From Tepidibacter aestuarii (GTDB lineage: Bacteria > Bacillota > Clostridia > Peptostreptococcales > Peptostreptococcaceae): DNA of 64,000 bases. The notes below the pieces were generated by a model, which did no database searches, had not been told where the DNA came from, and was given only the letters and a program-made list of their open reading frames with translations. Position 1 is the first letter of the stretch. Every line of letters starts with the position of its first letter. The translations under genes were made by a program, and so were the position numbers. Positions 20,459-61,721 of this stretch are shown one piece after another. The DNA is taken from contig NZ_OW235315.1 in assembly GCF_934924865.1 (NCBI RefSeq), forward strand, positions 3,410,001-3,474,000. Reading direction: 5' to 3'.

Positions 20459-20602
20459 GTATAAAAAATTCGTCTAGTCGCTACGCACTGACTCATATTG
20501 CCAACGATCCCCTACGGGTTCCGTTGCTCAAAAATAGTTGTAAGCGTAGTTCTTTCCTCAATATTATCTCCATATTTAAAACTATATAATTCCCTATACA
20601 AT
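20459..20602 (-). repeat. Dispersed ~140-bp intergenic repeat, copy A
   Basis: Shares with copies B-E the blocks AAAAATTCGTCTAGT, a CCAACGA-type core, TTGCTCAAAAATAGTTGTAAG, GTAGTTCTT and TATATAATTCCCTA (written on the plus strand). It lies beyond the terminator of the PIN/TRAM gene and upstream of the XRE operator. No reading frame is kept between copies. Confidence 0.8.
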
Positions 20603-20635
20603 AAAAAAGACTCTGCCATTGGCAAAGTCTTTTTT
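20603..20635 (-). terminator. Terminator of the PIN/TRAM gene
   Basis: Stem AAAAAGACT-x2-GCC / GGC-x2-AGTCTTTTT with a 3-nt loop, directly beyond the stop at 20634. Confidence 0.85.
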
Positions 20636-21737
20636 ATGATGATTTTTCTGTTGCTGTTTTTGGTTTTCCAAATATCATTCTGCCTGCTGCAGTTTGAAGA
20701 ACAGATGTTACTAAAACGTCTATAGTCTCTCCTATATATTTTCTGCCTCCATCTACTACAATCATAGTTCCATCATCTAGGTAAGCTACTCCTTGACCCG
20801 ATTCTTTTCCTTCTTTTATAACCTGAACTATCATTTCTTCCCCTGGTATAACAACTGGCTTTACAGCATTTGCTAGTTCATTTATATTCAATACTTCAAC
20901 ACCTTGAAATTGGGCTACTTTATTTAAATTAAAATCATTAGTGACAACTTTTCCACCTATCATCTGTGCTAATTTTAAAAGTTTAATATCCACTTCTGGA
21001 ACATCTTCAAAATCTTTGTCTGTTATTTCAACCTCAATATCAAGCTCTTTTTGTATTTTATTTAAAATATCAAGTCCTCTTCTACCTCTTACTCTTTTTA
21101 AGTCATCTGATGAATCTGCTATATGCTGAAGTTCTTTTAATACAAATTCAGGTATAACTATTTTACCTTCTATAAATCCAGTCTTAGATATATCAGCTAT
21201 TCTTCCATCTATTATTACACTAGTATCTAGTATCTTAGGTTTATCTTTTAATTCTTTCTTACTAGTAGACTTTTCTTTAGTATTAGGTATTCTGATAATA
21301 GATGTTATGTTGAATAACTCATCCTTATATCTTACAGATATTTTTATTCCTATATATCCCATAAGAATGTATACAAGTACAGACAGAACAGTTCCAAGTA
21401 TAGGAACAGGTATTTGAAGCAATAGATTACTTACCAAATACGCTATGAATAATCCAATTATAAGACCGATTGAACCTATTAAAATCTCCACTGGTGGTAC
21501 TTTAGATAATTCTTTTTCCACAAAATTGGCTATATTCTTTCCCTCTTCTATAAGCCATGGAGAAATCAAGAAAAATATAAATCCCATTATAAGACCAGAC
21601 ACCATAGACCCTAAAATTATATACATCTCAGATGCCGGTAATAAATTCGGAAAAGCTTCAACTACAGAAAAATAAGTTCCAACTCCAATAGTTATACCTA
21701 TTAAAGACATAATTCCTTTTATAATTTTATTTATCAC
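20634..21737 (-). CDS. PIN/TRAM-domain membrane protein, YacL family
   Basis: 367 residues. Four hydrophobic segments fill about 1-140, then a PIN-type nuclease domain ([21 protein letters not shown] from about 168, [13 protein letters not shown]) with the acidic residues expected for the fold, and a C-terminal TRAM RNA-binding domain ([38 protein letters not shown]). Probably a membrane-anchored ribonuclease of unknown target. GTG start after AGGAGGTG. It follows carD, as in other Firmicutes. Confidence 0.88.
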
Positions 21738-21778
21738 TATTTCACCTCCTATTTAAAGTATCGTCTATATTTTATTTT

Positions 21779-22261
21779 TTAATCTAAATTTATATTACTT
21801 TCTATTAATTCCTTCACATTTTCAGAATTATCATTAAGAACTAATGTTAATTCACTAATTAGCATATCTTTAGCATCATTTAACATTTTCTTTTCTCCTG
21901 TTGACAGTCCCTTTTGCTTATCTTGTATCATTAAATCTCTAACAACAACCGCTATTTCGTATATATCTCCAGTTTTTATTTTGTCCATATTATCTCTAAA
22001 TCTTTTATTCCACTTTTGATCCATATCTCCTTTTTTATCTTTAATTATATCCATTAAATCTTCTACTTTGTCCTTATCTATAATATGTCTTATTCCTAGC
22101 TTATTAATATTGTCAATAGGTATCATTATCTCAACTTCAGATATAACCATATTTAGAATATAATACTTCTTTGTCTCTCCTAATACCTCTTTTTCCTCTA
22201 TAGAATTTATTATACCCGCTCCATAATTAGGGTAAACTATTTTGTCGCCTATATTAAACAT
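21779..22261 (-). CDS. CarD family transcriptional regulator
   Basis: 160 residues from ATG 22261 (MFNIGDKIVYPNYGAGIINSIEEKEV); a longer in-frame extension upstream is rejected because AAGGGAG is 8 nt before this ATG. The N-terminal CarD/TRCF RNA-polymerase interaction domain is followed by a helical domain (KWNKRFRDNMDKIKTGDIYEIAVVVRDLM). CarD proteins bind RNA polymerase and affect promoter opening. It lies with PIN/TRAM, disA and radA, a common clostridial group. Confidence 0.92.
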   Translation of the reverse strand: MFNIGDKIVYPNYGAGIINSIEEKEVLGETKKYYILNMVISEVEIMIPIDNINKLGIRHIIDKDKVEDLMDIIKDKKGDMDQKWNKRFRDNMDKIKTGDIYEIAVVVRDLMIQDKQKGLSTGEKKMLNDAKDMLISELTLVLNDNSENVKELIESNINLD

Positions 22262-22469
22262 AAAATTTCTCCCTTCAAAATAATAATCTATTATAGTATA
22301 TACCAACGGTTTGGAATAGTCAAACCAAAACAATTATTTTATCATATTAAATTATAGTATGTCAATTATATTTTGTAATTAAATGCTCTATTATTACCTA
22401 TTATGAAAAAATTTATACAATTGACCTGCAATCGTTTTCTTATTATAATTATTATGAGGTGATTTTAAA

Positions 22470-22865
22470 ATGAGTGAATTCAATTTTGATAAATTTGAAA
22501 ATTCAGTAAATAATTCATTAATAAGGCATAAGAGTATTTTAGATATAGTAACTAAACTTGAGGAAAGTAACTCTAAAACAAATAGGGCCATAATAAAGTC
22601 TGTTACAAACTGCGGTTGTATTGAAATATCAGGAAAGAAACAAAATCTTCCAAAATATATAGCCTTCAATGAACTTTCTAATTATATGAATAACCATATA
22701 GTAGGTAGTTTATGCGATAATTGCAAAGAAAAAATAGAAGAAGAATTAGGAAATCATCTTTTCTATATGCAGTCTCTATGCAATTGTCTAAACATAAGTC
22801 TAGAAGATGTTTTTAAGAAAGAAAACAATAAACTTCAAACTCTAGGAATATACAATCTACTTTAA
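22470..22865 (+). CDS. MazG-like helical protein
   Basis: 131 residues on the plus strand between carD and disA, AT-rich, with GAGGTG ribosome binding site. Residues 87-125 (KEKIEEELGNHLFYMQSLCNCLNIS...) resemble the EELGDxLWYL motif of MazG-type nucleotide pyrophosphohydrolases, though Asn95 stands where Asp is usual. Six cysteines occur in pairs (48/50, 82/85, 104/106). Homologues of this gene sit next to disA in other Clostridia. Enzyme activity is unproven. Confidence 0.72.
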   Translation: MSEFNFDKFENSVNNSLIRHKSILDIVTKLEESNSKTNRAIIKSVTNCGCIEISGKKQNLPKYIAFNELSNYMNNHIVGSLCDNCKEKIEEELGNHLFYMQSLCNCLNISLEDVFKKENNKLQTLGIYNLL

Positions 22866-22880
22866 AGTAATACGTTTGTA

Positions 22881-22920
22881 TTTAAAATAAAAGGGCATAT
22901 ATATGTCCTTTTATTTTAAA
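22881..22920. terminator. Bidirectional terminator between the MazG-like gene and disA
   Basis: Arms TTTAAAATAAAAGGGCA / TGTCCTTTTATTTTAAA around a 6-nt loop, with one G-T pair. The genes are convergent here. Confidence 0.88.
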
Positions 22921-22927
22921 TAAATTT

Positions 22928-24007
22928 TTAAATATGTCTATCAAGTAATACTTGTTCTTGTATTCTTCTTAACCCATCTCTTATGTATCTAGCCCTTATT
23001 TCTCCAATACCTTCTACATCATCAAGTTCTTCAATAGTTGCTTTTAGTATAGACTGGAAGTTATCGAAATGATAAGTTAAATTCTCAACTACACTATTAG
23101 GCAATCTATATATTTTTCTAAGAATTCTCCATCCCCTTGGATAAACTGTATATTCTATATTATCTATATTACTAGCAGTATAACCCAAAAGCCTTACTAT
23201 ATTATTCAGCTCAAGCAAGTCCTCCGATGAGAAATTTCTAATAGATTTTTTGAATTGTGAATAATCTCTGTCTTTAATTATATTATAATCCTTAAATACC
23301 ATTTCTCCGTCTTCTTTTACATTTCCTATTAACTCTTCTAACTGCATACTAACTAATATTCCTTCATTTCCAAGCTCTATTATATAATGTTCTATCTCTG
23401 TAACTATTCTCATAACCATTTCCGTTCTTTGAACAACTGTTGCAACATCATAAAGAGTTACCAAATCCTCAAATTCTAATGCACTTAGATTAATCATAGC
23501 CTGGTCTAGTACCGATTTATATTTTTCAAGAGTTTGAATAGCTTGATTTGCTTTTGTTAATATTTTTGATGTTTCTTGTATTACATATTTGCTATACCCT
23601 CTATACAAAGTTATTATGTTTCTTCTTTGTGATATAGATATAACCATCTCAGCAGTTTGCCTAGCGACCCTTTCTGCTGTTCTATGTCTTATCCCAGTCT
23701 CTGATGATGGTATCAATGGATTTGGTATTAATTGAGTATTTGCATAAAGTATCTTTTTACCATCACTACTTACTATTATTGCACCATCCATTTTTGCAAG
23801 TTCATACAAATATGCTGGTGAAAAATCAGAATTTATATTAAATCCACCATCAACTATTTTCATTATTTCTTCACTATTTCCTATTACAATCAATGCTCCA
23901 GTTTTTGCCCTTAGAACATTTTCAAGACCTTCTCTAAGAGGTGTTCCTGGTGCTATCATCTTCAAGCAGTTTAATTGTTCTATATCTTTTGTAAAGCTTT
24001 CTTTCAT
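22928..24007 (-). CDS. disA: DNA integrity scanning diadenylate cyclase
   Basis: Makes c-di-AMP and reports DNA damage in sporulating Firmicutes. The 359-residue product has the cyclase active-site motifs DGA (74-76) and RHR (107-109, GIRHRTAERVARQT), a central helical region, and a C-terminal helix-hairpin-helix DNA-binding segment (VEGIGEIRARYIRDGLRRIQEQ). Length is normal. It lies 6 bp after radA, the usual pairing. Confidence 0.97.
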   Translation of the reverse strand: MKESFTKDIEQLNCLKMIAPGTPLREGLENVLRAKTGALIVIGNSEEIMKIVDGGFNINSDFSPAYLYELAKMDGAIIVSSDGKKILYANTQLIPNPLIPSSETGIRHRTAERVARQTAEMVISISQRRNIITLYRGYSKYVIQETSKILTKANQAIQTLEKYKSVLDQAMINLSALEFEDLVTLYDVATVVQRTEMVMRIVTEIEHYIIELGNEGILVSMQLEELIGNVKEDGEMVFKDYNIIKDRDYSQFKKSIRNFSSEDLLELNNIVRLLGYTASNIDNIEYTVYPRGWRILRKIYRLPNSVVENLTYHFDNFQSILKATIEELDDVEGIGEIRARYIRDGLRRIQEQVLLDRHI

Positions 24008-24013
24008 TTATAT

Positions 24014-25381
24014 CTACCCTCCTAGTACATAGTCTAAAGCCTCTCTTATATTTTCTACTCCTATAATCTTAATATCGTCAATATTTTCTAATCCTTTTAC
24101 ATTATTTTTAGGAACTATTACTCTATTAAAACCTAATTTTTTGCATTCTGATATTCTTTTTTCTATAAAACTTACTCCTCTTATCTCTCCTGTTAAACCC
24201 ACTTCACCGATGGCAACAGTTTTTTCATTTGTTTCTATATTTCTAAAGCTAGAGGCTATAGATATTACTATTCCAAGGTCCATAGCTGGCTCATTAAGTT
24301 TTATTCCTCCAACAACATTTATATAAATGTCTTGATTCTGTATTTGCATTCCTGCTCTTTTTTCAAGAACTGCCATAAGAAGAGAAACTCTATTATAATC
24401 CACTCCAGTTGCAGCCCTTTTGGGTATACCAAAGCTAGTTGGACAAACAAGAGCTTGAAGTTCTACTAACATAGGTCTTGTCCCTTCTATAGTTGCCACT
24501 ATAACTGATCCTGATACGCCCTTTGGTTTTTCAGATATAAGTATTTTTGAAGGATTTTCGACTTCTATAAGTCCTTTATCTCTCATCTCAAATACTCCTA
24601 GTTCATTAGTAGAACCAAATCTATTTTTAACTGCTCTAACCATTCTATATGTATTATATCTTTCCCCTTCAAAGTAAAGAACAGTATCAACCATATGCTC
24701 AAGTATTTTAGGTCCAGCAAGTGATCCCTCCTTTGTTACATGTCCAACTATAAAGGTTGATATACCTACTTTTTTAGATATTTTCATAAATCTAGAGGTT
24801 CCTTCTTTTATTTGACTAACACTTCCTGGAGTAGAAGTTATTTGTGGACTAAATACTGTTTGTATAGAGTCAACTATCATCATATCAGGTTTTATATTAT
24901 CTATTTGTTTCTCTATTATGTCTAGATTATTTTCTGCAAATATATATAAATTCTTACTTTCTATATCAAGCCTCTTTGCTCTCATCTTTATCTGGTATAT
25001 GGATTCTTCCCCTGATACATATAGAACTTTTTTCCCACTTTTAGCTACATTTTCTGCAACCTGAATTAAAAGAGTAGACTTTCCTATTCCAGGATCTCCG
25101 CCTGCTAATATTAATGATCCTTTAACTACTCCTCCACCTAATACTCTATCTAGCTCATTTATACAAGTTGAAAACCTTTCTTGTTCCCTTATTTCAAGTT
25201 CATTTATTGATACAGGTTTTTGAACTTCTTTTTCTATTATAAAAAGATCATGTTTACTTTTTTTATCTTCTATTTCTTCCACAAATGTATTCCAATCATC
25301 ACATTCTGGACATTTACCAATCCACTTTAAACTTTCGTATCCACATGATTGACAAACATATTTACTTTTAATTTTAGCCAT
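24014..25381 (-). CDS. radA: DNA repair protein RadA (Sms)
   Basis: RecA-like branch-migration helicase. The 455-residue product has an N-terminal zinc finger (C10-x2-C13 ... C24-x2-C27), Walker A GGDPGIGKST (94-103), the RadA-specific KNRFG motif (near 250) and a C-terminal Lon-protease-like domain (GVDYNRVSLLMAVLEKRAG, then LNEPAMDLGIVISI). Length is standard. In one group with clpC (upstream) and disA (downstream). Confidence 0.97.
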   Translation of the reverse strand: MAKIKSKYVCQSCGYESLKWIGKCPECDDWNTFVEEIEDKKSKHDLFIIEKEVQKPVSINELEIREQERFSTCINELDRVLGGGVVKGSLILAGGDPGIGKSTLLIQVAENVAKSGKKVLYVSGEESIYQIKMRAKRLDIESKNLYIFAENNLDIIEKQIDNIKPDMMIVDSIQTVFSPQITSTPGSVSQIKEGTSRFMKISKKVGISTFIVGHVTKEGSLAGPKILEHMVDTVLYFEGERYNTYRMVRAVKNRFGSTNELGVFEMRDKGLIEVENPSKILISEKPKGVSGSVIVATIEGTRPMLVELQALVCPTSFGIPKRAATGVDYNRVSLLMAVLEKRAGMQIQNQDIYINVVGGIKLNEPAMDLGIVISIASSFRNIETNEKTVAIGEVGLTGEIRGVSFIEKRISECKKLGFNRVIVPKNNVKGLENIDDIKIIGVENIREALDYVLGG

Positions 25382-25470
25382 ATTATCACCTTTACATTTT
25401 AATTAATCAACTCAAGTTAATTGAATTAATACTAATTATAGAATACCAAAAAATATATATTTTGGGAAAC

Positions 25471-25493
25471 AAAAAGAGCTTAATTTTAAGCCC
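25471..25493 (-). terminator. clpC terminator
   Basis: Minus strand GGGCTTAA-AA-TTAAGCTC followed by five Ts, overlapping the last clpC codons. It separates clpC from radA. Confidence 0.7.
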
Positions 25494-27921
25494 TTTTATC
25501 AAATAATAGTTTTCCATTATTTTCTCTAACTATTATATCATCCCCTTTATTTATATTTCCTTTTAAAATTTCCTCTGAAATATTATCCTCAAGGAGCTTT
25601 TGTATAGCTCTCTTAAGAGGTCTTGCCCCATATGCTTTATCAAATCCTTCTTTTGCTATTAGCTTAATTGCACAATCTTCAAGTTCTAAATTTATGTCCA
25701 TACTTTTTAATCGTTCTTGTAAATTTTTAATCATTAACTTCACTATTTCATCTATATGTTCTTGATTTAAAGAATGAAAAACTATTATCTCATCTATTCT
25801 ATTTAAAAATTCTGGTTTGAATTTTAATCTAAGTTCTTTCATAACATTTTCTTTCATTTTTTCATATTCACTTTTTTGAATTTCTTCACTGTCTAAATGC
25901 GTTGTAAATCCCAATGTCTTTTGATTTGATATATTGTGAGCCCCTACATTAGACGTCATTATTATTAAAGTATTTTTAAAATCAATTATTCTACCTTTAG
26001 AATCACTTAATCTTCCATCATCTAATATTTGAAGCAATATATTAAATACATCTGGATGCGCTTTTTCTATTTCATCAAATAGTACTACACTATAAGGATT
26101 TCGTCTGATTTTTTCAGTAAGTTGGCCTCCTTCTTCATGCCCTATATATCCAGGGGGAGATCCTATCATCTTTGATACAGCGTGCTTTTCCATATATTCA
26201 GACATATCTATCCTTATTATACTATCTTCACTAGAGAACATAACGTGAGCTAACGCTTTAGAAAGTTCTGTCTTTCCAACTCCTGTTGGTCCTAAAAATA
26301 TAAATGAACCTATTGGTCTTTTAGGATCTTTAAGACCTACTCTAGCTCTTCTTATAGCTTTTGATATAGCTTTTATAGCTTCTTTTTGACCTATAACCCT
26401 GTTACTTATTATATTTTCAAGATCTAAAAGCTTTTTACTTTCTTCTTGAATAAGCTTATTTACAGGTATTTTAGTCCATGAAGATACTATATCGGCTATA
26501 TCCTCTTCATCAACTACATCAGATGATTTTGAAGAATCTTTCTTCCAGGCTTTTTGAGTCTTTTCTAGTTTTTCTTTTATCTCTTTTTCTTCATCTCTTA
26601 TGCTTGCCGCATTTTCAAAATCTTGATTTCTTATAGCTTCTTCTTTTTCTTTTGCTAAAACTTCTAATCTATCCTGCATATCCTTTATATCTTTAGGAGG
26701 GACATAGTTAGAAAGCCTAACTTTAGAACTTGCTTCATCTATCAAATCAATAGCTTTATCTGGTAAAAATCTATCGTTTACATATCTATGTGATAAATTC
26801 ACAGCAGCACTTATGGCCTCATCAGTTATTTTCACATTATGGTGGGCTTCATATCTATCTCTAAGCCCTTTTATTATATCTATAGAATCTTGAATAGACG
26901 GCTCGTCAACCATGACTGGCTGGAATCTTCTCTCAAGAGCAGAGTCTTTTTCTATATACTTTCTATATTCGTCAAGAGTAGTTGCTCCTATTATCTGTAT
27001 CTCTCCTCTAGCAAGCTCAGGCTTTAAAATATTAGACGCATCCATAGATCCCTCTGAGCTACCAGCTCCAACTATTGTATGCAGCTCATCTATGAATAAT
27101 ATTATATTTTGATTATTTTTTAGTTCAACCATTGCATTTTTTATTCTTTCTTCAAACTCACCTCTATACTTTGCACCTGCTATCATTCCAACTAAATCTA
27201 GTGATACTATTCTCTTATCTTTTAATATTTCTGGTACATCACATGATACTATTTTCCCTGATAGTCCCTCTATTATAGCTGTTTTCCCAACCCCTGGATC
27301 TCCTATAAGTACAGGATTATTCTTAGTTCTTCTGCTTAGTATCTGTATAACTCTTTGTATTTCAATATCTCTTCCTATAACAGGATCTAGCTTTCCATCT
27401 TCATATAATTTATTAAGATCTTTACCGTACTTACTTAGTGTTGGTATGTTCTTATTATCAAATTTTTCATTTTTTTTATGTGCTATGTTTATATCCTTTA
27501 AAGAATTTAGTATTTCTGTACTTAACTCACTCATATTTATGCCTAAATCATATAATATCCTCCACGCTATTCCATCACCTTCTTTTATAATTCCCAAAAG
27601 TATATGTTCTGTTCCAACGTAATTATGTCCTAGTACTTTTGCCTGCATGAATGCGAGTTCGAATATTTTCTTAGTTCTTGGACTAAATCCAATTACTTTA
27701 ACTTTTAAATTGCCTATTTGTATGTATAACGGTATACGCTGTTTTATTAGTTCTTCATTAACCCCAAACTTATTTAAAACTTGTCCGGATATACTCGCAC
27801 TATCTTTTAAAATACCTAAAAGTATATGTTCACTTCCAACTAAATTATGTCCCATATTACTTGCTTCTATTGCTGCTATATCTAGTGATTTTCTAGCTCT
27901 TTGAGTAAATTTGTCAAACAT
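25486..27921 (-). CDS. clpC: ATP-dependent unfoldase ClpC
   Basis: AAA+ partner of ClpP. The 811-residue product has two Clp-N repeats (1-145), AAA1 with Walker A GDPGVGKT (207-214), a UVR coiled segment ([19 protein letters not shown]) and AAA2 with [10 protein letters not shown] and the LGFTT loop characteristic of ClpP-binding partners region. Length is normal. In Bacillus and C. difficile-type genomes clpC follows ctsR-mcsA-mcsB; here the upstream neighbour is repeat B and an EF-G-like gene, and no CtsR-type heptad repeat is seen in the upstream region. Confidence 0.96.
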
Positions 27922-27986
27922 AAAATCCCTCCTAAATTAATACTAATACATATTATTTCCGAAACATGAAATGTTAATTCAGATTG

Positions 27987-28133
27987 ATATAAATAAAAAA
28001 TTTGTCTAATGCCACGAATTTACTCATGCCGCCAATGAGCCCAACAGACTCTATTGCTCAAAATAGTTGATACTGTAGTAATTTCAACAATATTTTCTGT
28101 AGGCTGAAAATTATATAACCTCTTAGTATATAA
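27987..28133 (-). repeat. Dispersed ~140-bp intergenic repeat, copy B
   Basis: The most diverged full-length copy: AAAAATTTGTCTAAT, CCGCCAATGAG, TATTGCTCAAAATAGTTG, then ATTATATAACCTCTTAGTATA. Same orientation as the others; lies beyond the EF-G-like terminator and ends 66 bp before clpC. Confidence 0.75.
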
Positions 28134-28166
28134 AAAAAGAATGACTTAAAAAGTCATCCTTTTTTA
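28132..28166 (-). terminator. Terminator of the EF-G-like gene
   Basis: AAAAAAAGAATGACTT / AAGTCATCCTTTTTT around AAA; ends at the stop codon of the gene at 28168. Confidence 0.85.
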
Positions 28167-28167
28167 T

Positions 28168-30153
28168 CTATTTATTACTTTGTGCTTCTTCTATTATTTT
28201 CTGTGCAAACTGTGCTGGAACTTCATCATATTTATCAAATTCCATTTCAAAATAACCTCTTCCTTGAGTCATAGATCTTAAATCTATAGCATATTTAAAA
28301 GTCTCAGCTTGTGGTGCCTGAGCATATATAATTTGTTTTCCTCTTGAAGAAGGCTCCATTCCAAGTATTTTTCCTCTTCTTTTATTTATATCTCCCATTA
28401 TGTCTCCCATATACTCTTCAGGAACTACTATTTTTAAATTCATTATAGGTTCTAATAATACAGGCTCTGCTTCTTGTATTCCTTTTTTAAATGCGATTGA
28501 AGATGCTATTTTAAATGCCATTTCAGATGAGTCCACATCATGATATGATCCATCATATAATGTTGCTTTTATATTCATAACAGGGAACCCTGCTAATGCA
28601 CCTTCACTAAGACACTCTTTAAGACCTTTTTCTACGGCAGGTATATATTGTTTTGGAACTGATCCTCCGAATATGGCCTGCTCAAATATAAATTCTTCTT
28701 TAGATGGCTCAAATTTTATTTTAACATCTCCATACTGTCCGTGACCTCCACTTTGCTTTTTATGTTTTCCTTGTACATCTGATTTACCTTTTATGGTTTC
28801 TCTATATGCTACTTTCAAATCTGAAAGTTTAACCTCTACGCCAAATTTTTCTTTTAATTTATCTTTTATAGAATTTATATGCAGTTCTCCTTGGCCTCCT
28901 ATTAAAGTTTGCTTGGTTTCATGATTTCTAAACCATTTAAAAGAAAGATCTTCTTCTGATAACCTATGAAGTCCATTACTTATTTTTTCTTCATCTCCCT
29001 TATTTAAGCTATTTATTGCATAATATATTTGTGGTTTTGGAAATTCTATATTTTCGAAAGGCTCTTTATTAGAGCTTGTAGATAGAGTATCACCAGTTTG
29101 AACATTTGAAAGCTTATTTAATACTACAATATCTCCAGCAACAGCTTTTTTAAGTTCAATCTGATCCTTGTTTTTAAATGAATATATATGATATATTTTT
29201 TCTTTATTATCTTTATTTATATTATAAACTTCAGTATCTGGAGTTAATTCACCCTCACATACTTTTAATAGCGATACTTTTCCAATGAATGGATCAACTA
29301 ATGTTTTAAAAACTATTCCTGAGAATTCTTTATTATCACTTCTTAGTCCTATATCTGTAGGAGATGGCATGTAATCCCAAACCATATCCAGCAAAGTATG
29401 TATTCCTATATTTTTATTTGTTGAACCACACAATACAGGAATTATATCTCCTTTTAATACTCCTTCTCTTAATCCCTTATGTATTTCTTCTTGTGTGAAT
29501 TCCCCTTGTTCAAAATATTTATCAAGAAGCTCATCATCAGTTTCAGCAACTGATTCTAGTAGCATTTCTCTAATAGGACTTATATCTTCTTTCATATTTT
29601 CAGGTATATCAACTGTAACGCAATCTTTGCCATTATACTCTCTTGCAAACATATCTACTACATTTATAAATCCTTTAAACTCTTCATTATTTCCCATAGG
29701 CAAATGGAATGGAGCTATTTTCTTTCCATATCTTTCTCTTAGTTGCTCTAACACTTTGTTGTAATCAGCTTTTTGGCTGTCAATTTTATTTATAAATATG
29801 AATTTTGGGGTATTGTTTTCATCTGTTATCTCTAAAGCTTTATCTGTTCCAACTTGAATATCACAAGTTCCATCTACTACTATGATAGATCCTGCTGCCG
29901 CTTTAATAGCTGATATTGATTCTCCATAAAAATCAAAATATCCAGGAGTATCTAAGAAATTATATTTATGGTCATTCCATTCAACAGGGGCTAAACTAAG
30001 TGTAGATGTCATATTTACTTCTTCATTTGGCTTACTTATCCTATTTACTAATTTATTAGTATATAAAACAGCTTCTATTAAATTACTTTTTCCACATCCA
30101 GAATGTCCTAAAACCACAATATTTCTTATTTTATCACTTTCATAAATTTTCAT
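28168..30153 (-). CDS. Elongation factor G-like GTPase
   Basis: 661 residues with GTPase motifs GHSGCGKS (G1), FLDTPGYFDF (G3) and INKID (G4), the EF-G domain II-like part (GIVFKTLVDPFIGKVSLLKV), domain IV (GSVPKQYIPAVEKGLKECL) and domain V (EPVLLEPIMNLKIVVPEEYMGDIMGDINKRRGKILGME). This is the divergent paralog group (EF-G-like, sometimes called FusA2) rather than the canonical factor, since it is shorter and the P-loop has GHSGCGKS instead of AHIDAGKT. Role unknown; TetM-type resistance is not indicated. Confidence 0.9.
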   Translation of the reverse strand: MKIYESDKIRNIVVLGHSGCGKSNLIEAVLYTNKLVNRISKPNEEVNMTSTLSLAPVEWNDHKYNFLDTPGYFDFYGESISAIKAAAGSIIVVDGTCDIQVGTDKALEITDENNTPKFIFINKIDSQKADYNKVLEQLRERYGKKIAPFHLPMGNNEEFKGFINVVDMFAREYNGKDCVTVDIPENMKEDISPIREMLLESVAETDDELLDKYFEQGEFTQEEIHKGLREGVLKGDIIPVLCGSTNKNIGIHTLLDMVWDYMPSPTDIGLRSDNKEFSGIVFKTLVDPFIGKVSLLKVCEGELTPDTEVYNINKDNKEKIYHIYSFKNKDQIELKKAVAGDIVVLNKLSNVQTGDTLSTSSNKEPFENIEFPKPQIYYAINSLNKGDEEKISNGLHRLSEEDLSFKWFRNHETKQTLIGGQGELHINSIKDKLKEKFGVEVKLSDLKVAYRETIKGKSDVQGKHKKQSGGHGQYGDVKIKFEPSKEEFIFEQAIFGGSVPKQYIPAVEKGLKECLSEGALAGFPVMNIKATLYDGSYHDVDSSEMAFKIASSIAFKKGIQEAEPVLLEPIMNLKIVVPEEYMGDIMGDINKRRGKILGMEPSSRGKQIIYAQAPQAETFKYAIDLRSMTQGRGYFEMEFDKYDEVPAQFAQKIIEEAQSNK

Positions 30154-30347
30154 AGAAAAAATCCCCCTTCTTTTTTATAATATTCTATATATTTTGAATT
30201 TTTCCTTTTTTTAGTTTTTACTTATAAATCCAAAATAATACACAATATCATTAACTTATATTATTTAATTAAATTTGGCTTTATTATAAATATTATAATT
30301 TTCTTATATATAAAATATTATGTTTTAAAGTTTTTATTATGTATGAT

Positions 30348-30485
30348 ATATAAAAAATTCGTCTAGTTGCTACTCAACGGCTCATATCGCCAACGAGTTT
30401 CATTGCTTAAAAATAGTTGTAAGTATAGTTCTTCACCCATGTTATTTACAGATTCAAAATTATATAATTTCCTATAGAGTGAAAA
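30348..30485 (-). repeat. Dispersed ~140-bp intergenic repeat, copy C
   Basis: AAAAAATTCGTCTAGTTGCTAC, CGCCAACGAG, CATTGCTTAAAAATAGTTGTAAG, ATAGTTCTTC and TTATATAATTTCCTATA, in the same order as copy A but 6-8 bp shorter in the middle. It lies in the 450-bp gap between the thioredoxin-like gene and the EF-G-like gene; the rest of that gap is AT-rich without ORFs. Confidence 0.8.
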
Positions 30486-30585
30486 TTTAGCTTCATACTA
30501 GAAAACTAACGCTCTTCATTGCCTAATAATTGCTATTTTATTGATTTTCTAAATACATATTTTTTTATATTAATCTATTTTTTCG

Positions 30586-30625
30586 CAAAAAAATAATAGG
30601 TCTTTTTTAAAAGCCTATTATTTTT
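30586..30625 (-). terminator. Terminator of the thioredoxin-like gene
   Basis: AAAAATAATAGG / CCTATTATTTTT with a 13-nt loop; the stop codon lies in the loop. Confidence 0.7.
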
Positions 30626-31113
30626 AAAACGTCATCTATTGTATTTTTTGTGTATTCACCTTTTTTGTATTTTCTTTTAGAAACTAGTATCTCAGCCTCA
30701 TTACCTCTATTTATAATTTCTTTTAATATAGTTGGTAATTCTATGAATACTCCTAGTTCTTCAAAGTCCTCATCCATTATTATAAATGTCGGTATTTTAG
30801 GTTTTCCATTGAAGCTATACTTATTTAAAGCCTCTTCATTTCTTTCTCTTGATACAATTCTTAAGTTAATGTTTACATTTAAATCACAGATAAAGCTTAC
30901 TCCCGGTAAATTTATTTGACAATCAGGGCACCAATCTTCCGCAAATACTAATATATATATTTTTTTTTGGACACTCTTTATCTTATTCATTAACTTTTTA
31001 TCCATATTTATAGAATTCTTAATTTTTTCTATTTTTTCCTTGTATACATCTTCTGAAGATTCCAAAAACTCTTGAAAGCTTATACCTTTAAAAAACAGGT
31101 CTTTTAAACTCAT
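30607..31113 (-). CDS. Thioredoxin-like protein
   Basis: 168 residues. A helical N-terminus (1-45) precedes a thioredoxin fold: ILVFAEDWCPDCQINLPG carries the CxxC redox pair (C-P-D-C), and NGKPKIPTFIIMDEDF has the cis-proline (IPT). There is no signal peptide, so it should be cytosolic. This type (thioredoxin family, WCPDC) is common in Firmicutes; the partner is unknown. Single gene upstream of rRNA operon 1. Confidence 0.87.
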   Translation of the reverse strand: MSLKDLFFKGISFQEFLESSEDVYKEKIEKIKNSINMDKKLMNKIKSVQKKIYILVFAEDWCPDCQINLPGVSFICDLNVNINLRIVSRERNEEALNKYSFNGKPKIPTFIIMDEDFEELGVFIELPTILKEIINRGNEAEILVSKRKYKKGEYTKNTIDDVLKIIGF

Positions 31114-31186
31114 ATTTTTATACCCCCTATATGGATATACTACTTAAGAACTATTATAACACAAAAAATATAATAAAAAAAGATTA

Positions 31187-47329: not shown

Positions 47330-47397
47330 ACCATAAGTTTTTACATTCACCATTGCTGTTATCTATAGATTCAACGTTATATAATTTTTTAAACAAT
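47330..47397 (-). repeat. Degenerate half-copy of the dispersed repeat, copy E
   Basis: Keeps only the right half: AGTTTTTACATTCACC, TGCTGTTATCTATAGATTCAACGTTATATAATTTT in pieces, resembling copy C (TTATTTACAGATTCAAAATTATATAATTTCC). It ends at the tRNA-array terminator. Confidence 0.5.
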
Positions 47398-47428
47398 AAA
47401 AAAACACCTTTAAAATAAAGGTGTTTTT
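47397..47428 (-). terminator. Terminator of the tRNA array
   Basis: AAAACACCTTTA-AAA-TAAAGGTGTTTT with T-run on the minus strand, 7 nt beyond the last tRNA. Confidence 0.9.
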
Positions 47429-51059: not shown

Positions 51060-51063
51060 ATAC

Positions 51064-51139
<76 letters not shown>

Positions 51140-51145
51140 TTATTG

Positions 51146-51234
51146 TGGTGCCGAGGACCGGAATCGAACCGGTACGATCTGTAAGGACCGCAGGATTTTA
51201 AGTCCTGTGCGTCTGCCAGTTCCGCCACCTCGGC
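51146..51234 (-). tRNA. tRNA-Leu (TAA), block 2
   Basis: Loop CTTAAAA; copy of 49266. Confidence 0.97.
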
Positions 51235-51242
51235 ATTTTTTT

Positions 51243-51317
51243 TGGCTCCAAGGGTGGGGCTCGAACCCACAGCCTATCGGTTAACAGCCGATTGCTCCAC
51301 CATTGAGCTACCTTGGA
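51243..51317 (-). tRNA. tRNA-Asn (GTT), block 2
   Basis: Loop CTGTTAA with a fully paired anticodon stem (ATCGG/CCGAT). First array tRNA after the rrn3 5S gene, 5 nt away. Confidence 0.97.
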
Positions 51318-51322
51318 ACATA

Positions 51323-51438
<116 letters not shown>

Positions 51439-51441
51439 TAT

Positions 51442-51515
51442 TGGAGCGGGTGAAGGGAGTCGAACCCTCGCAGCCGGCTTGGAAGGCCGGAACTCTACCA
51501 CTGAGCTACACCCGC
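51442..51515 (-). tRNA. tRNA-Gly (TCC) between 23S and 5S
   Basis: 74 nt; loop CTTCCAA. It lies between the 23S end and the 5S start, 3 nt before the 5S gene. Confidence 0.96.
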
Positions 51516-51565
51516 ATATTAAGTATTAAGATTAATACTTTCAAAATTGACCAGATTTAAAATTT

Positions 51566-54485
<2,920 letters not shown>

Positions 54486-54543
54486 AAATTTATTTAAATC
54501 TGTTCAATTTTCAAAGTACTAATATAGTATATAAAATACTAAA

Positions 54544-54619
54544 TGGTGGAGACGAGGAGAGTCGAACTCCTGACCCCTTGCTTGCAAGGCAAGTGCTCTC
54601 CCAACTGAGCTACGCCCCC
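54544..54619 (-). tRNA. tRNA-Ala (TGC) in the 16S-23S spacer
   Basis: 76 nt; loop CTTGCAA. Only operon 3 has a spacer tRNA. Confidence 0.97.
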
Positions 54620-54644
54620 ATATTGTATTTTTTTGACGAAATAT

Positions 54645-54673
54645 ATAATAACAAATTTATTAAAATTCGTCAA
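54645..54673 (-). promoter_or_regulatory. Promoter inside the 16S-23S spacer of operon 3
   Basis: Minus strand TTGACG (54668-54673), 17-nt spacer, TATTAT (54645-54650), 26 nt before tRNA-Ala. The -35 and spacing match the main rrn promoters. Confidence 0.82.
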
Positions 54674-54712
54674 GAGTTTTTTATAAACTCTCAAAATTAA
54701 ACAGTAGGTTAT

Positions 54713-56236
<1,524 letters not shown>

Positions 56237-56385
56237 AAAAGTTTGTCAGTACTCAGTAAACTGACTTTATGTGTTGTTTCCGAAAATCACTGATGTGATT
56301 TATTTATAACCTACTGTTTAATTTTCAAAGTTCATATGTTGTATTCATGTGTTTTTCGTTAGCCTCGTTGTCGAGGACAAGTAAT

Positions 56386-56414
56386 AATATATCACCTTTG
56401 AAACATTTCGTCAA
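56386..56414 (-). promoter_or_regulatory. rRNA operon 3 promoter
   Basis: TTGACG (56409-56414), 17 nt, TATATT (56386-56391). The leader differs slightly from operons 1 and 2. Confidence 0.88.
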
Positions 56415-56661
56415 CACTTTTTTATATTTTTTTATTTTTTACTTATTAATTACTATATTTAAATCATTTTTTAGTACATTATATACATTAATATAATCTA
56501 AACATAAGCCCTATTTAATTGTGTCTATTGAAAATATATTAAGTAATTTTATTTATATTTCTAAATAAAATAAATCCAATTGATATTCTTCTCATTAAGA
56601 TAATTTAATATACTAACGCAACCTAAAATAATTTAATGTGTATTGTGGCTTTTTAAATGTA

Positions 56662-56690
56662 TTGAATTTTCAGAAGATTTATGCTATACT
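56662..56690 (+). promoter_or_regulatory. Promoter of the first nhaC-type gene
   Basis: TTGAAT (56662-56667), 17 nt, TATACT (56685-56690) on the plus strand. It leaves a leader of about 170 nt with no recognised riboswitch. The stretch 56415-56661 is AT-rich without features. Confidence 0.7.
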
Positions 56691-56866
56691 TTCCATACAT
56701 TTATAATTTTATCAACTAAACGGCAATATTATATTCAAAATATTACAGGGGTGAATATATATTGTTATGTTCTTGTGTTAACCCGACCTAAATTCAGTTA
56801 GATAACATACTTATAACTGGATATTAAAAACTTAGTTTTTATTATTTTAAAAGGGGGAAAATTATA

Positions 56867-58270
56867 ATGGCAAAACAAAAACGTAAGGCAAACTTACTAG
56901 AAGCTCTCATTCCTATTTTATGTTTAATCTTATTTATAGGAGTTGCAGTTTTTAAGTATGAGGCATCACCTCATATTCCTTTAATTTGCGGAGCTGTCGT
57001 AGCTGCTCTTATGGCTACTACTAGGCTTGGTTTTAAATGGAATGAGCTTGAGGAAGGCGTTATGAAAACCATCAATATGGCAATGCAGGCTATTTTGATT
57101 CTTATGATAGTAGGTACAATTATAGGTACTTGGATATTAAGTGGTGTAGTTCCTACTATGATATATTACGGCCTTAAGATATTATCGCCTGGTATATTCT
57201 TAGTTGCAACTTGTGTAATATGTGCAATAGTTGCTCTTGCTACAGGATCTTCTTGGACTACAGCTGGTACTGTTGGTATAGCACTTTTAGGTGTTGGTCA
57301 AGGACTTGGTATTCCTCCCCATATAGTTGCCGGTGCAATCATATCTGGTGCTTACTTTGGAGATAAAATGTCCCCATTATCAGATACTACAAATCTAGCA
57401 CCAGCCATGGCAGGTGCTAATCTATTCGACCATGTACGTCACATGCTATTCACAACTGGACCATCTTTAGTAATCGCTCTTATCCTTTACGGTTTCATAG
57501 GTGCTAAATATGCAGGTAAAAATATTGACCCTACTATAATAAACCAAATGCTTAGTGCTCTTTCATCTAGTTTTAACATAAATCCATTACTCTTCCTTCC
57601 ACCTATAATAGTAATCACAATAGTTATTTTAAAAGTTCCAGCAATTCCAGGTCTTATAACAGGTTCTTTACTTGGAGGAATATTTGCTTCTATATTCCAA
57701 AAATCATCACTTGGAGAAATAATTACTGCTGCTAATTACGGGTTCGTATCAGAAACAGGAATCGAAGCTGTAGATTCATTATTAACTCGTGGTGGTCTTC
57801 AATCTATGATGTGGACAGTTTCTTTAATATTATGTGCTTTGGCACTTGGAGGAATACTTGAAAAAACAGGTATGCTTGAGGTTATAGCAGAAGGCATATT
57901 AAAGTTAGCAAGAGGTACTGGCGGACTTGTCGTTGCTACTATATTCTCTTGTATATTCGTAAACTTAGTTACAGGAGAGCAATACTTATCTATAGTTATT
58001 CCAGGAAGAATGTATAAAGATGCTTATACTAAAAAAGGTCTTCACCCTAAAAACTTATCAAGAGCACTTGAAGATTCAGGAACACTTACATCTCCTCTTA
58101 TTCCGTGGAATACATGTGGAGCATACATGTTTGCAACATTAGGTGTTCATCCATTTGCTTATTTACCTTATGCATTTTTAAATCTAATAAATCCTCTAGT
58201 ATCTATGTTCTATGGATTTACAGGAATTACAATGCACAAGCTTCCTGAAGAAGAATATATTACAGAATAA
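56867..58270 (+). CDS. Na+/H+ antiporter, NhaC family
   Basis: 467 residues, about 11-12 membrane helices, typical NhaC length. Conserved segments include ATGSSWTTAGTVGIALLGVG (125-144), GAYFGDKMSPLSDTTNLAPA (161-180) and EDSGTLTSPLIPWNTCGAYM near the C-terminus. Family members exchange Na+ for H+, or malate/lactate or amino acids; the exact substrate is unknown. It starts with GGGGG ribosome binding site and ends at a strong GGGCCC hairpin. Confidence 0.93.
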   Translation: MAKQKRKANLLEALIPILCLILFIGVAVFKYEASPHIPLICGAVVAALMATTRLGFKWNELEEGVMKTINMAMQAILILMIVGTIIGTWILSGVVPTMIYYGLKILSPGIFLVATCVICAIVALATGSSWTTAGTVGIALLGVGQGLGIPPHIVAGAIISGAYFGDKMSPLSDTTNLAPAMAGANLFDHVRHMLFTTGPSLVIALILYGFIGAKYAGKNIDPTIINQMLSALSSSFNINPLLFLPPIIVITIVILKVPAIPGLITGSLLGGIFASIFQKSSLGEIITAANYGFVSETGIEAVDSLLTRGGLQSMMWTVSLILCALALGGILEKTGMLEVIAEGILKLARGTGGLVVATIFSCIFVNLVTGEQYLSIVIPGRMYKDAYTKKGLHPKNLSRALEDSGTLTSPLIPWNTCGAYMFATLGVHPFAYLPYAFLNLINPLVSMFYGFTGITMHKLPEEEYITE

Positions 58271-58275
58271 ATTAC

Positions 58276-58300
58276 GGGCCCATAGGGCCCTTTCTTTTTA
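58276..58300 (+). terminator. Terminator of the first nhaC-type gene
   Basis: GGGCCC-ATA-GGGCCC followed by TTTCTTTTT. Confidence 0.9.
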
Positions 58301-58462
58301 TTTATAAATAAACTATATCATTTTCAATTTGTTTATAACATAAAGTAAAATATGAGTTATTATAATCCTCAAAATTGTAGAAATTATTGCCACTAGAATG
58401 TTTATGATATAGCATGATTTGAATTTCTTATTTTTATAATCTTATTTGAGAGGTCGTTTAAC

Positions 58463-59785
58463 ATGAAAAATATATTAGTACCACTTATATTAATATCACT
58501 ATCAGTAATAATGAAAAAGCCAGTATATATAGGAATATCAATTTCTGCCTTATTTATATATATAAATGGCATACTAAATAAATATAACTACAAAGATTTA
58601 AATAAAAGTATAATATCGAGTGTATTATCTGCAAAACGCATAATACTAATTCTTTCATTAGTAGGTATGCTTACATCATCATGGATGGTATGTGGAACTA
58701 TACCATATATGATTCATTTAGGGCTTACTATATTAAAAAAATATAACTTTATACTTATCTCTTTTCTAATAATGTCTGCTATATCATATATACTGGGAAC
58801 TGCAGTAGGCAGTATATCAACTATAGGGGTTGTAATTATAACAATAGGAAAAGCCATAGGCTTAAATACCTCTATTCTCGCAGGAGCAATAGTATCAGGT
58901 GCCTTCTTAGGAGATAGATCTTCTCCTATATCCGGCGCTTTAAATTTGAATATAGAGATGACACATTCTAATCCATACAAACTTATAAATAAAATGAATA
59001 CAACATTACTTCCAGCTTTTATAACCAGCTGTATTCTGTATTTTATTTTAGGTAAGTACAATAGCGCAAATAATTACAGTAATTTAGACAATATATTAGT
59101 GAATTTATCTAAGAGTTTTAATATAAACATACTTTGCTTAATACCTGTAATAATACTTTTTATATTAATAATAATAAAAATAGATATAACTAAGTCCATA
59201 CTAGCATCATTATGTTCTAGCTTTTTAATCGGATTTTTGATTCAACGCACTAGTATGCATAGCTTAATAAAAATCTCATTAATTGGATTTAATGAGAATA
59301 ATTCCACATCTAATATAATAAATGGGGGGGGATTCATATCAATGGTTCCCGTCGTATTCACAATAATAAGTGCAACTACGTTTACAGGTCTATTAGATGC
59401 AACAGATAGCTTAAGTATTTTGATAAACAAATTAATCTCGTCGATAAAAACCAAATATGACTTACTAAAAAAATGCTCTTTACTTAGTATAGTTTTAAAT
59501 ACATTAACATGTAATCAAACCGTTGGGATAATTGTCCCGTGTAAATTTATGAAAAATGCATTTATTGACTATAATTTAGAAAACGAAGATTTATCTCAAT
59601 GTTTAAGTGATAGCGGCACAATAACAGTTCCTTTGATTCCCTGGAATATAAATTCTATTATAGCTTCTACACTTTTGGGAGTACCTTCTATTAATTTTAT
59701 TCCATACTCATTTTTGTGTTATCTGATACCTATTGTATTTATATTAAAATCCAGAAAAAATAATAACATAGACGTATTAGCTTAA
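58463..59785 (+). CDS. Divergent NhaC-family transporter
   Basis: 440 residues, 11-12 membrane helices, very AT-rich and Ile-rich. It keeps GTAVGSISTIGVVIITIG, GAFLGDRSSPISGALNL and SDSGTITVPLIPWNINS in the order of NhaC proteins, but the SDTTN motif of its neighbour is SGALN here (157-161). GAGAGGTCG ribosome binding site. Probably a diverged paralog with altered transport; also possible is a decaying copy, although the frame is intact. Confidence 0.8.
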   Translation: MKNILVPLILISLSVIMKKPVYIGISISALFIYINGILNKYNYKDLNKSIISSVLSAKRIILILSLVGMLTSSWMVCGTIPYMIHLGLTILKKYNFILISFLIMSAISYILGTAVGSISTIGVVIITIGKAIGLNTSILAGAIVSGAFLGDRSSPISGALNLNIEMTHSNPYKLINKMNTTLLPAFITSCILYFILGKYNSANNYSNLDNILVNLSKSFNINILCLIPVIILFILIIIKIDITKSILASLCSSFLIGFLIQRTSMHSLIKISLIGFNENNSTSNIINGGGFISMVPVVFTIISATTFTGLLDATDSLSILINKLISSIKTKYDLLKKCSLLSIVLNTLTCNQTVGIIVPCKFMKNAFIDYNLENEDLSQCLSDSGTITVPLIPWNINSIIASTLLGVPSINFIPYSFLCYLIPIVFILKSRKNNNIDVLA

Positions 59786-59834
59786 ATGTTTTTTAAATTA
59801 TTATAGTATAATGTAATAAAGGAGGTTTTTTAGT

Positions 59835-60512
59835 ATGTTAGTAAAATATTTAGGTCACTCTGCTTTTTTGATTCAAACTTCAGAGTACAACATTTTAATA
59901 GACCCATTTATAAAGGATAATCCCAATTGCCCAATCAACCTAAAGGAATTGCCTCATATACACTACATATTAGTAACCCATGGACATAATGACCATATGG
60001 GAGATACTATTTTGATATCTAAAAAATACAATAGTACTGTAATATGTAACTTTGAAATATCTTTATATTTATCTAAATACAATATAAAATGTATGTCTAT
60101 GCATATAGGAGGATGTATTAATCCCACCTTTGGAAAGGTCAAGATGATACCTGCTTTACATGGTTCTAGTATTTATGAAGGGACTCACTTAATATATGCT
60201 GGCAATCCATGTGGCTTCTTATTAGAAATCGAAAATACCAAATTATATCATGCAGGAGATACAGGTCTTTCTATAGAAATGACTCTTTTAGAATATGAAT
60301 ATATCGATTTTGCTATGCTTCCTATAGGTGGAGTATTCACAATGGATATTGACGATTGTATAAGGTCAATAGACTTTATAAAACCCAAAAATGTTATCCC
60401 TATGCACTTCAATACATTCGATGCTATAAATGCCGATCCTAATTTATTAAAAGATAAAGTTAAATCTTGTAATATAACCATTTTAGATCCTGGAGAAGAT
60501 ATAAAAATATAA
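59835..60512 (+). CDS. Metal-dependent hydrolase, UPF0173 (metallo-beta-lactamase fold)
   Basis: 225 residues starting MLVKYLGHSAFLIQTSEYNI. The HGHNDHMGD segment is the HxHxDH zinc motif; later DAGDTG-like HAGDTGLS and PMHFNTFD supply the remaining ligands. Length is standard. AAAGGAGG ribosome binding site 9 nt before the ATG. Substrate unknown. It ends at a bidirectional terminator. Confidence 0.9.
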   Translation: MLVKYLGHSAFLIQTSEYNILIDPFIKDNPNCPINLKELPHIHYILVTHGHNDHMGDTILISKKYNSTVICNFEISLYLSKYNIKCMSMHIGGCINPTFGKVKMIPALHGSSIYEGTHLIYAGNPCGFLLEIENTKLYHAGDTGLSIEMTLLEYEYIDFAMLPIGGVFTMDIDDCIRSIDFIKPKNVIPMHFNTFDAINADPNLLKDKVKSCNITILDPGEDIKI

Positions 60513-60541
60513 AAAAAGAGTTCGAATGAACTCTTTTTTTA
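60511..60541. terminator. Bidirectional terminator between convergent genes
   Basis: AAAAAAAGAGTTC-GAAT-GAACTCTTTTTTT. Confidence 0.92.
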
Positions 60542-60543
60542 TA

Positions 60544-61509
60544 TTATTCTTGAGCTTGATCGTCTTGAGCTTGATCGTCTTGAGCTTGATCGTCTTGAGC
60601 TTGATCGTCTTGAGCTTGATCGTCTTGAGCTTGATCGTCTTGAGCTTGATCGTCTTGAGCTTGATCATCTTGAGCTTGATCATCTTGAGCTTGATCGTCT
60701 TGAGCTTGATCATCTTGAGCTTGATCTTCAGTTGATTCTTCTAATTCAATAGTCTCCGTTTCTTTATCATAATCAACATCTAATCCTAAGTTTTCAGCAA
60801 TAAATCTTAGTGGAACTATAGTTCTATTACACATTATTTCAGCTGGAACATCTATTTCTTTTTCTTCTCCATTAACATAAGCCTTTCCATCTTCTAAGCT
60901 TAATATAATTTCAGAATCATCTTTAGTTATTATAACCTTCTTCTCCTCAGCATTCCACTTAACATCAGCTCCAAGTCCTTCAGATATAGCTCTTACTGGA
61001 ACTAAAGTTCTTCCATACTTTATAACAGGAGGTGTATCAAATTTCATATTTAAATCTTCACTTATAATACTTTCAACTGGCAGTACATATGTATTCTCAT
61101 TATTTTCTTTTATTTCGTTAGATGATTTTTCTATTTTTTCTAATTCTTCTTGTGTATATTTTTCTTTAGCCATTTTCTTCATCTGTCTTTTTAAATCTTT
61201 AATATCTTTAGTTAACTTATCTATACTATTTTGTAATTCTTCTATTTTCTTTAATAGCTCATTAGATAACTTATCGTTTTTGTCTTCCTTTGCTTTTATA
61301 ATTTCTTTTTCTATTTTTTCTTTATCAAACTTCATTTTTTCTATATTAGTTTTTTCATGCTTTATGTTTCTCATTTGCTCGTATTTTTGGTTATTTTTAT
61401 AGTTTTGATGTCCTTTCTCTTGTGCATTTGCACTCATAGCAGCTGGTCCTGTAAATACAATCGCAGAAACAAGCAATGCAGGTATAATTTTCTTTTGTAA
61501 TAGTTTCAT
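60544..61509 (-). CDS. Secreted stalk-domain (copper amine oxidase N-terminal-like) protein with C-terminal pentapeptide repeats
   Basis: 321 residues from ATG 61509 (AAGGAGAG upstream). Signal peptide MKLLQKKIIPALLVSAIVFT, with a likely cut after ANA; then a Lys/Glu-rich coiled-coil (about 30-130), then the stalk domain (VIKYGRTLVPVRAISEGLGADVKWN ... RTIVPLRFIAENLGLDVDY), and a C-terminal tail of (D/E)DQAQ x12 encoded by a 15-bp tandem repeat. Predicted extracellular. Such domains occur in surface proteins of Clostridia; ligand unknown. Confidence 0.87.
   Translation of the reverse strand: MKLLQKKIIPALLVSAIVFTGPAAMSANAQEKGHQNYKNNQKYEQMRNIKHEKTNIEKMKFDKEKIEKEIIKAKEDKNDKLSNELLKKIEELQNSIDKLTKDIKDLKRQMKKMAKEKYTQEELEKIEKSSNEIKENNENTYVLPVESIISEDLNMKFDTPPVIKYGRTLVPVRAISEGLGADVKWNAEEKKVIITKDDSEIILSLEDGKAYVNGEEKEIDVPAEIMCNRTIVPLRFIAENLGLDVDYDKETETIELEESTEDQAQDDQAQDDQAQDDQAQDDQAQDDQAQDDQAQDDQAQDDQAQDDQAQDDQAQDDQAQE
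60550..60729 (-). repeat. 15-bp tandem repeat, 12 units
   Basis: Unit TTGAGCTTGATCGTC (or ...CATC) repeated 12 times, encoding DDQAQ. The C/T difference at one position is silent (GAC/GAT). Not CRISPR: no spacers. Confidence 0.95.
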
Positions 61510-61576
61510 ATAAAACTCTCCTTCACAATTTATTTTCGTAATATAATTACGCGAATAAACTTTTATTTTGGTACCA

Positions 61577-61721
61577 AACAAAAAATTCATCTAGTTGCTC
61601 CTCGCTGACTCATGTTGTCAACAAGCCTCGCGACTCTGTTGCTTAAAATATTTGCAAATATAGTTCTTCCATCAATGTTATCTGCAGAACGGAAATTTTA
61701 TAATCCCTTAGTATATAAAAA
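61577..61721 (-). repeat. Dispersed ~140-bp intergenic repeat, copy D
   Basis: AAAAAATTCATCTAGTTGCT, GTCAACAAG, CTGTTGCTTAAAATA, ATATAGTTCTTCC, TGTTATCTGCAGA and TATAATCCCTTAGTATA. Lies beyond the rsgI terminator, 67 bp before the stalk-protein start. Confidence 0.8.

Follow-up and report, generated by a model that had tools for sequence, protein, structure and literature searches.

The 64,000-nt stretch of the Tepidibacter aestuarii genome analysed here (contig NZ_OW235315.1, positions 3,410,001 to 3,474,000; hereafter the window) contains four full copies of a short intergenic repeat, copy A (20459..20607), copy B (27992..28136), copy C (30349..30485) and copy D (61577..61721), all on the + strand. 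They are copies of a small folded non-coding DNA that has spread among related bacteria via insertion in A-rich intergenic spots, often at gene ends. Hidden Markov models (HMMs) built solely from copies outside the window (25, 37 and 27 rows) recovered copy A with 133.2 bits (E 3e-40), copy B with 73.6 bits (E 6.7e-22), copy C with 93.5 bits (E 5e-28) and copy D with 100.4 bits (E 3.9e-30), whereas the best score of the three profiles across 20 first-order Markov windows was 12.0 bits. The dispersed intergenic family of ~140 bp proposed in a preliminary description of this DNA is thus borne out by all four full copies (E 7e-22 to 3e-40), and is larger than was described there. Chance likeness of AT-rich intergenic DNA, under which the copies would resemble one another no better than shuffled sequence does, has nothing for it at the full copies and is refuted there by these independent models and controls; scores come near the controls at a proposed half-copy at 47330, and as an account of the family we consider it practically dismissed. 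What stands of that half-copy is a stretch at 47357..47402 (+), which probably derives from the right half of the repeat (right-half HMM, 15.9 bits, E 9e-4), although the full-length HMM is weak here (8.3 bits, E 0.08; best control 12.0). The right-half model R3, used for the genome-wide list of right halves, includes this stretch, so that its match there is no independent evidence; the scores given here come from independent profiles. A weak right-half match at 58341-58296 (- strand, E 0.02) may be a further remnant. Terminator hairpins read in the sequence abut the right ends of copy A (20609..20635; GACTCTGCCATTGGCAAAGTC and a T-run), copy B (28139..28165), copy D (61722..61753) and the remnant (47404..47428), and there is none directly at the right end of copy C.

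Read in the + strand orientation of the window (E+, the lower strand being E-), the element consists of AAAATTCG, hairpin 1, CTCATGTCGCC, hairpin 2, GTTGCTCAAAA, a right half of ~75 bp with TTATCCACA and TATAATTTCC, and a terminal TAAAA. In copy A, hairpin 1 lies at 20476..20489 (+; AGTCGC TAC GCACT, with one bulged C) and hairpin 2 at 20502..20526 (+; CAACG..CGTTG). Conservation runs from AAAATTCG, where A stands at 98-100% in four positions (92 copies), to the TAAAA, where a T precedes the A-run in 85% (68 copies, the A-run being by construction the anchor of their alignment), and both ends are A-tracts. The build is modular: the length is ~140 bp and sometimes ~200 bp, nine of 123 matches being 200-203 bp long with a second, duplicated internal hairpin module, and the left half comes in two types, TCTAGTCGCTACGCACTGA (as in copy A) and CTTCATGCTAACGCATGG, the second in 27 of 97 own copies by a simple text rule. 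Indels do differ between copies, as had been noted, which fits the claim that they share no protein. The weak inverted likeness that had been seen between the ends is doubtful, given that the terminal columns stay unpaired in a consensus fold of 29 copies and that the left TATA lies outside the conserved boundary; copy A folded alone as RNA pairs its own ends, unlike this consensus. No inverted repeat was seen by eye at the outer ends in other genera either, and in several Romboutsia and Paraclostridium copies an internal one (TTTTTTACGCT../..AGCGTAAAAAA, by eye) bounds the right half. In an uncultured Clostridium (L303:3280) and in Paraclostridium ghonii (L279:464), a left half stands immediately ahead of the start of a small gene, with no right half to be recognised, possibly a kept position.

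Covarying base pairs, which the preliminary description had proposed to look for, were found as compensatory changes in both left-half hairpins, and because of them it is scarcely in doubt that the structure is under selection. Hairpin 2 could be parsed in 134 of 147 copies, its pair 4 being G-C in 83 and A-T in 29, and its pair 7 C-G in 49, T-A in 37 and T-G in 26. Over its six variable pairs, 651 of 804 cells were paired compared with at most 614 in column shuffles, a test that took the best-pairing register per copy and so favours the observed count; when arms were swapped between copies under the same best-of parse, 4.86 pairs per copy were observed against at most 4.58 in 100 swaps. For hairpin 1, parsed by keeping copies with GC..GC round the loop (108 of 146), the three outer pairs were paired in 310 of 324 cells and in at most 242 in shuffles. 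Its loops are nearly uniform (104 of 108), with T-N-C or T-N-N-C on E+, i.e. GNA or GNNA on E-, closed by C-G, a class of very stable single-stranded DNA mini-hairpins.

The covariance-model search of this and related genomes that had been suggested was run with a model of 29 copies, and gave at least 123 matches in the window genome (E <= 0.01; 150 candidates scored) and at least 98, 77 and at least 98 in three congeners (98 candidates scored per genome); BLAST with copy A had found 43 places in the window genome (40 of 158 candidates listed as scored). With the window genome counted in, 13 of the 31 genomes searched were matched. Beyond the genus, matches were fewer and weaker, except in a genome of another family (G028) with nine (best E 2.3e-15). 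A loose core pattern found at least 114 stretches across named genomes, and the 80 shown come from Tepidibacter, Romboutsia, Paraclostridium, Asaccharospora, [Eubacterium] tenue, Faecalimicrobium, Clostridium sp. CCUG 7971 and uncultured Clostridium; the copies in Romboutsia, Paraclostridium, Asaccharospora, Faecalimicrobium and others have the same build as the window repeat, with the 9-mer TTATCCACA and the TATAATTTCC stretch as the right-half features shared between genera. An exact 48-base pattern had no match in genome contigs before the looser pattern reached these other genera. BLAST against phages and plasmids returned no match to the repeat or to the clpC region, and the exact core pattern none in viral contigs. 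Rfam at gathering scores matched solely rRNA and tRNA in window 20000-64000; together with the open-licence PMC literature, where we found no account of the family, this agrees with the earlier statement that it is not a named one.

Movement was examined by comparing sites with congeners. Both flanks of 28 own copies were matched in a fetched congener stretch, mostly from G003, and the junctions were read by eye. Ten of these sites lack the element, seven of them cleanly (c10062, c32042, c3122568, c3398345, c3430455, which is copy A, c3437987 and c3471572) and three with a less clear junction (c3317771, c409452 and c3299150); a copy, whether intact, degenerate or of another subtype, occupies eleven, and seven have no clear assignment. 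For the window copies, the element is missing from the site of copy A in G003 and G002, where the element-free site of G002 also has the terminator hairpin, and from the sites of copies B and D in G003. The site of copy C holds other subtypes in G003 and G001, and in G002 the element is absent with ~100 nt more. In the reverse comparison, four relatives' copies could be placed in the window genome: a G001 copy aligns cleanly with an element-free site near 19.93 kb of the window, a G002 copy corresponds to an element-free site near 22.86 kb where additional bases follow on the right, and of the other two one falls on a degenerate copy and one is ambiguous. The empty sites that the preliminary description had suggested looking for thus exist in both directions, and since congeners have sites without the element we are nearly certain that the family is a mobile DNA element. 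Of the three natures first offered for the repeat, MITE-like (MITE, miniature inverted-repeat transposable element), structured RNA or protein-binding array, mobility is supported by these sites and structure by the compensatory changes; outer inverted repeats, the defining mark of a MITE, were not found in the consensus, and the array is unsupported, though one 9-mer is shared across genera.

The element uses tracts of the TAAAA type, a sequence that terminators and TAA stop codons often provide: it is present or absent at single tracts of this kind, many of which adjoin a terminator or follow a stop codon immediately. Among the 97 of 123 copies whose flanks had been fetched, 52 have a strong terminator hairpin starting at the right end, compared with 0.8% of shuffled flanks, and in other genera 20 of the 33 copies whose right end could be recognised have a strong terminator. 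We rejected the terminator as a sharp target, as the first control (68 of 1179 TAAAAA sites, 5.8%) included coding DNA and overstated the contrast; intergenic and gene-end controls replace it. Of 263 other TAAAAA sites in intergenic DNA, 50 have a terminator (P 5e-10 against the elements); close to gene ends, defined as no more than 150 nt from the 3' end of an open reading frame (ORF), 42 of 58 elements have one, as do 23 of 50 other A-tracts (P 0.006). The terminator preference beyond that of gene-end A-tracts is therefore moderate, because many intergenic A-tracts in the vicinity of gene ends are terminators in any case. Of 27 copies whose left ORF (mechanically called) points at the element, 21 have the stop codon of that ORF at the left A-tract, and of 20 copies whose right ORF has the E+ orientation, nine sit 3-23 nt from its start. 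Insertion at terminators or behind stop codons leaves genes intact, and a family that lands at gene ends illustrates how a hundred copies can be exceeded with little damage. At one locus (G000:C1:812740, L020) the adjoining terminator is itself built from a second, inverted type 2 left end (TTCGCTTCATGCC..GGCATGAAGCGAA).

The 9-mer TTATCCACA of the right half corresponds to the DnaA box of the host, and the dnaA locus of the window genome (4290 bases) has six exact copies of it. Within one mismatch it is present in 30 of 42 non-Tepidibacter copies (15 exact) that were collected by the left hairpin alone, while shuffled versions of it average 3% and reach 43% at most in these copies; at 71% it is shared more widely than any other of the 67 9-mers in the own right-half consensus, and the TATAATTTCCT stretch comes next (55-64%). 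Most copies of the own genome lack the box, with only 38 of 97 retaining it within one mismatch, no more than for neighbouring stretches, so a function of the box in each copy is not favoured; judged from sequence, the pattern would rather reflect selection on moving copies than on resident ones. As the box is kept across genera while most other right-half sequence has changed, yet decays in resident copies, the element might carry it as a working part, with DnaA, or replication started or stalled by it, helping to open or mobilise an active copy as single-stranded DNA. We regard this as a speculative and rather improbable proposal. If true, a small transposon would be exploiting the replication initiator, and the shared box gives a specific, testable link to replication.

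Taken as a whole, the copies seem to us, on balance, to be non-autonomous mobile elements of ~140 bp (sometimes ~200 bp) that are moved in trans, possibly via single-stranded DNA. Movement in trans is very probable, and each element would be moved by an enzyme recognising its hairpins. The likeliest route would go through a single-stranded DNA intermediate, acted on by an enzyme of HUH/Y1 or similar type; we put this forward only tentatively, and favour it because the E- loops of hairpin 1 belong to the stable mini-hairpin class described above. A number of observations weigh against this overall reading. A target-site duplication and an IS200-like target flank are indistinguishable here, and likeness between left and right flanks is weakly above chance (P 0.0027; 94 of 97 copies, with the trivially alike flanks of the tandem copy c3311287 included). 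When single copies are folded, copy A is the only one that clearly beats shuffles, by a wider margin under RNA parameters than under DNA parameters (z for E- of -2.7 and -2.2, respectively); copies B, C and D do not at the 5% level. We found no autonomous parent, the lists of left-half (128) and right-half (121) matches showing no pair round a gene (by eye; best 150 candidates each). Y1 transposases do not track the element: there is no Y1_Tnp match in G001 (a draft) despite at least 98 copies, and one weak partial match in the window genome. At 30 fetched Y1 loci the left-half model found nothing and the right-half model one match at chance level (8.6 bits, E 0.29), though models based on Tepidibacter may miss ends in other genera. 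Finally, with the origin placed at dnaA, the terminus assumed opposite and copies above 70 bits counted, the lagging-strand template carries E- in 85 of 103 copies. Most ORFs, however, run co-directionally with replication (237 of 289, 82%), and element orientation follows the ORFs (57 of 58 where both neighbours are E-, 3 of 9 where both are E+). The strand bias is explained by gene direction, and we dropped it as proof of lagging-strand insertion, the direction-neutral (convergent or divergent) contexts giving 17 of 27 (P 0.25).

A Y1/IS200 element as the mover was rejected, since the ends at the 30 Y1 loci fetched do not match the Tepidibacter-based models of the repeat. Some IS200-like elements of relatives (L216, L217, L233, L218 and L234) seem by eye to start right behind terminator T-tracts, like the E- strand of the repeat, with different ends. 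A lone 118-aa ORF with a weak Y1_Tnp match (L209:1297-1653, - strand), which resembles a REP-associated tyrosine transposase (RAYT; REP, repetitive extragenic palindrome), has no repeat ends beside it.

Other explanations account for parts of the same evidence. An ordinary DDE transposase could move the repeat as a MITE with short degenerate ends and a target duplication TAAAA of 5-6 bp, and the filled sites, with TAAAA on either side, look as this would predict, as do the element-free sites with their single A-tract, e.g. ATAAAAAA, the slight excess of flank likeness and the internal inverted repeat of the Romboutsia and Paraclostridium copies. The A-tracts, however, belong to both element ends, one per end at filled sites, and an outer inverted repeat is missing from the consensus and, by eye, from other genera; no parent insertion sequence (IS) was found, DDE families not having been searched for, and we hold this explanation to be doubtful. 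Further down in probability is a cis-acting RNA (3' untranslated region, leader or terminator-associated) that is kept for a regulatory job at each gene. Such an RNA would suit the compensatory hairpins, the right ends at strong terminators in 52 of 97 copies and the nine of 20 copies close before an E+ ORF, but the positions are not conserved, ten of 28 matched sites lacking the element in a congener; moreover, the E- strand behind a terminator would be expected to stay mostly untranscribed.

Group IIC introns insert behind terminators, and a comparable retroelement-like route, in which RNA of the element is copied into the T-tracts behind terminators, would be in keeping with the constant orientation of insertions immediately behind many terminator stems, with the A-tract at the end and with the absence of outer inverted repeats. 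Against it stand the lack of any Rfam intron match in window 20000-64000 and a terminator preference over matched A-tracts that is only moderate, and we think it unlikely. No moving enzyme was found, DDE transposases and reverse transcriptases not having been searched for. We retain movement in trans by an enzyme that would recognise the hairpins.

Besides the repeat, the window contains three rRNA operons between 31.2 and 56.4 kb, two of them within a repeat 6583 bp apart, and a tRNA array with a 1880-bp tandem duplication at ~47.6-51.1 kb. A 15-bp minisatellite of ~12 units (60548-60727) lies within an ORF (60544-61590, - strand) that adjoins copy D.

The repeat appears to work most like bcr1 or BOX, with no shown membership in either, bcr1 being nearest in behaviour and BOX in modular build. 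The positions of bcr1 vary between strains. Compared by description, not by sequence, bcr1 of the Bacillus cereus group is similar in size and copy number, is intergenic and is reported to fold in the accessible parts of PMC6542083, PMC3446304 and PMC2267715, which also associate it with a TTTAT motif; the ends here are the complementary TAAAA, with ATAAA frequent and not fixed. In contrast to bcr1, the repeat is found at many terminators, carries a DnaA-box 9-mer shared across genera and occurs only in Peptostreptococcaceae-type genomes among the matches listed, with no Bacillus among the 80 shown of at least 114 core-pattern stretches. BOX of Streptococcus pneumoniae, again compared by description, is modular, and the second hairpin module of our nine 200-203 bp matches (of 123) may be likened to an extra boxB unit; its placement likewise mirrors coding direction and it has no proven mover in the accessible text of PMC3049150. 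The same text likens the terminal inverted repeats of BOX to ISSpn2, whereas none were found in the repeat described here.

REPs tagged CGTC or GTAG, with their RAYTs, are also palindromes lying downstream of genes, and the CGTC type, too, is without a known transposase in what is accessible of PMC3733652; that text names five phyla for CGTC repeats, with Firmicutes and Clostridium unmentioned in it. The type 1 left half reads TTCGTC ahead of its hairpin, but 27 of 97 copies are of type 2, with TTCGCTT-like starts that lack the CGTC tag, and REPs measure 20-40 bp (PMC3733652, accessible part) with one stem of 8-9 bp in the CGTC type, against two hairpins and a right half of ~75 bp here. Non-autonomous derivatives of IS200/IS605 share with the repeat hairpins near an end, the absence of outer inverted repeats and a short fixed target (ISDra2; accessible part of PMC2806898), and differ from it in that no matching transposase ends were found (30 Y1 loci, models from one genus) and in that Y1 genes and copy number are not tied. 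As to MITEs, which share terminal inverted repeats with an IS, the 29-copy consensus has no end pairing and the 30 Y1 loci no ends above chance, other IS families not having been searched. High-copy intergenic repeats such as bcr1 and BOX have no proven mover in the accessible portions of these sources; the family described here offers many insertions, empty sites in close relatives, a definable target and cultured hosts, so that its mover could be sought experimentally.

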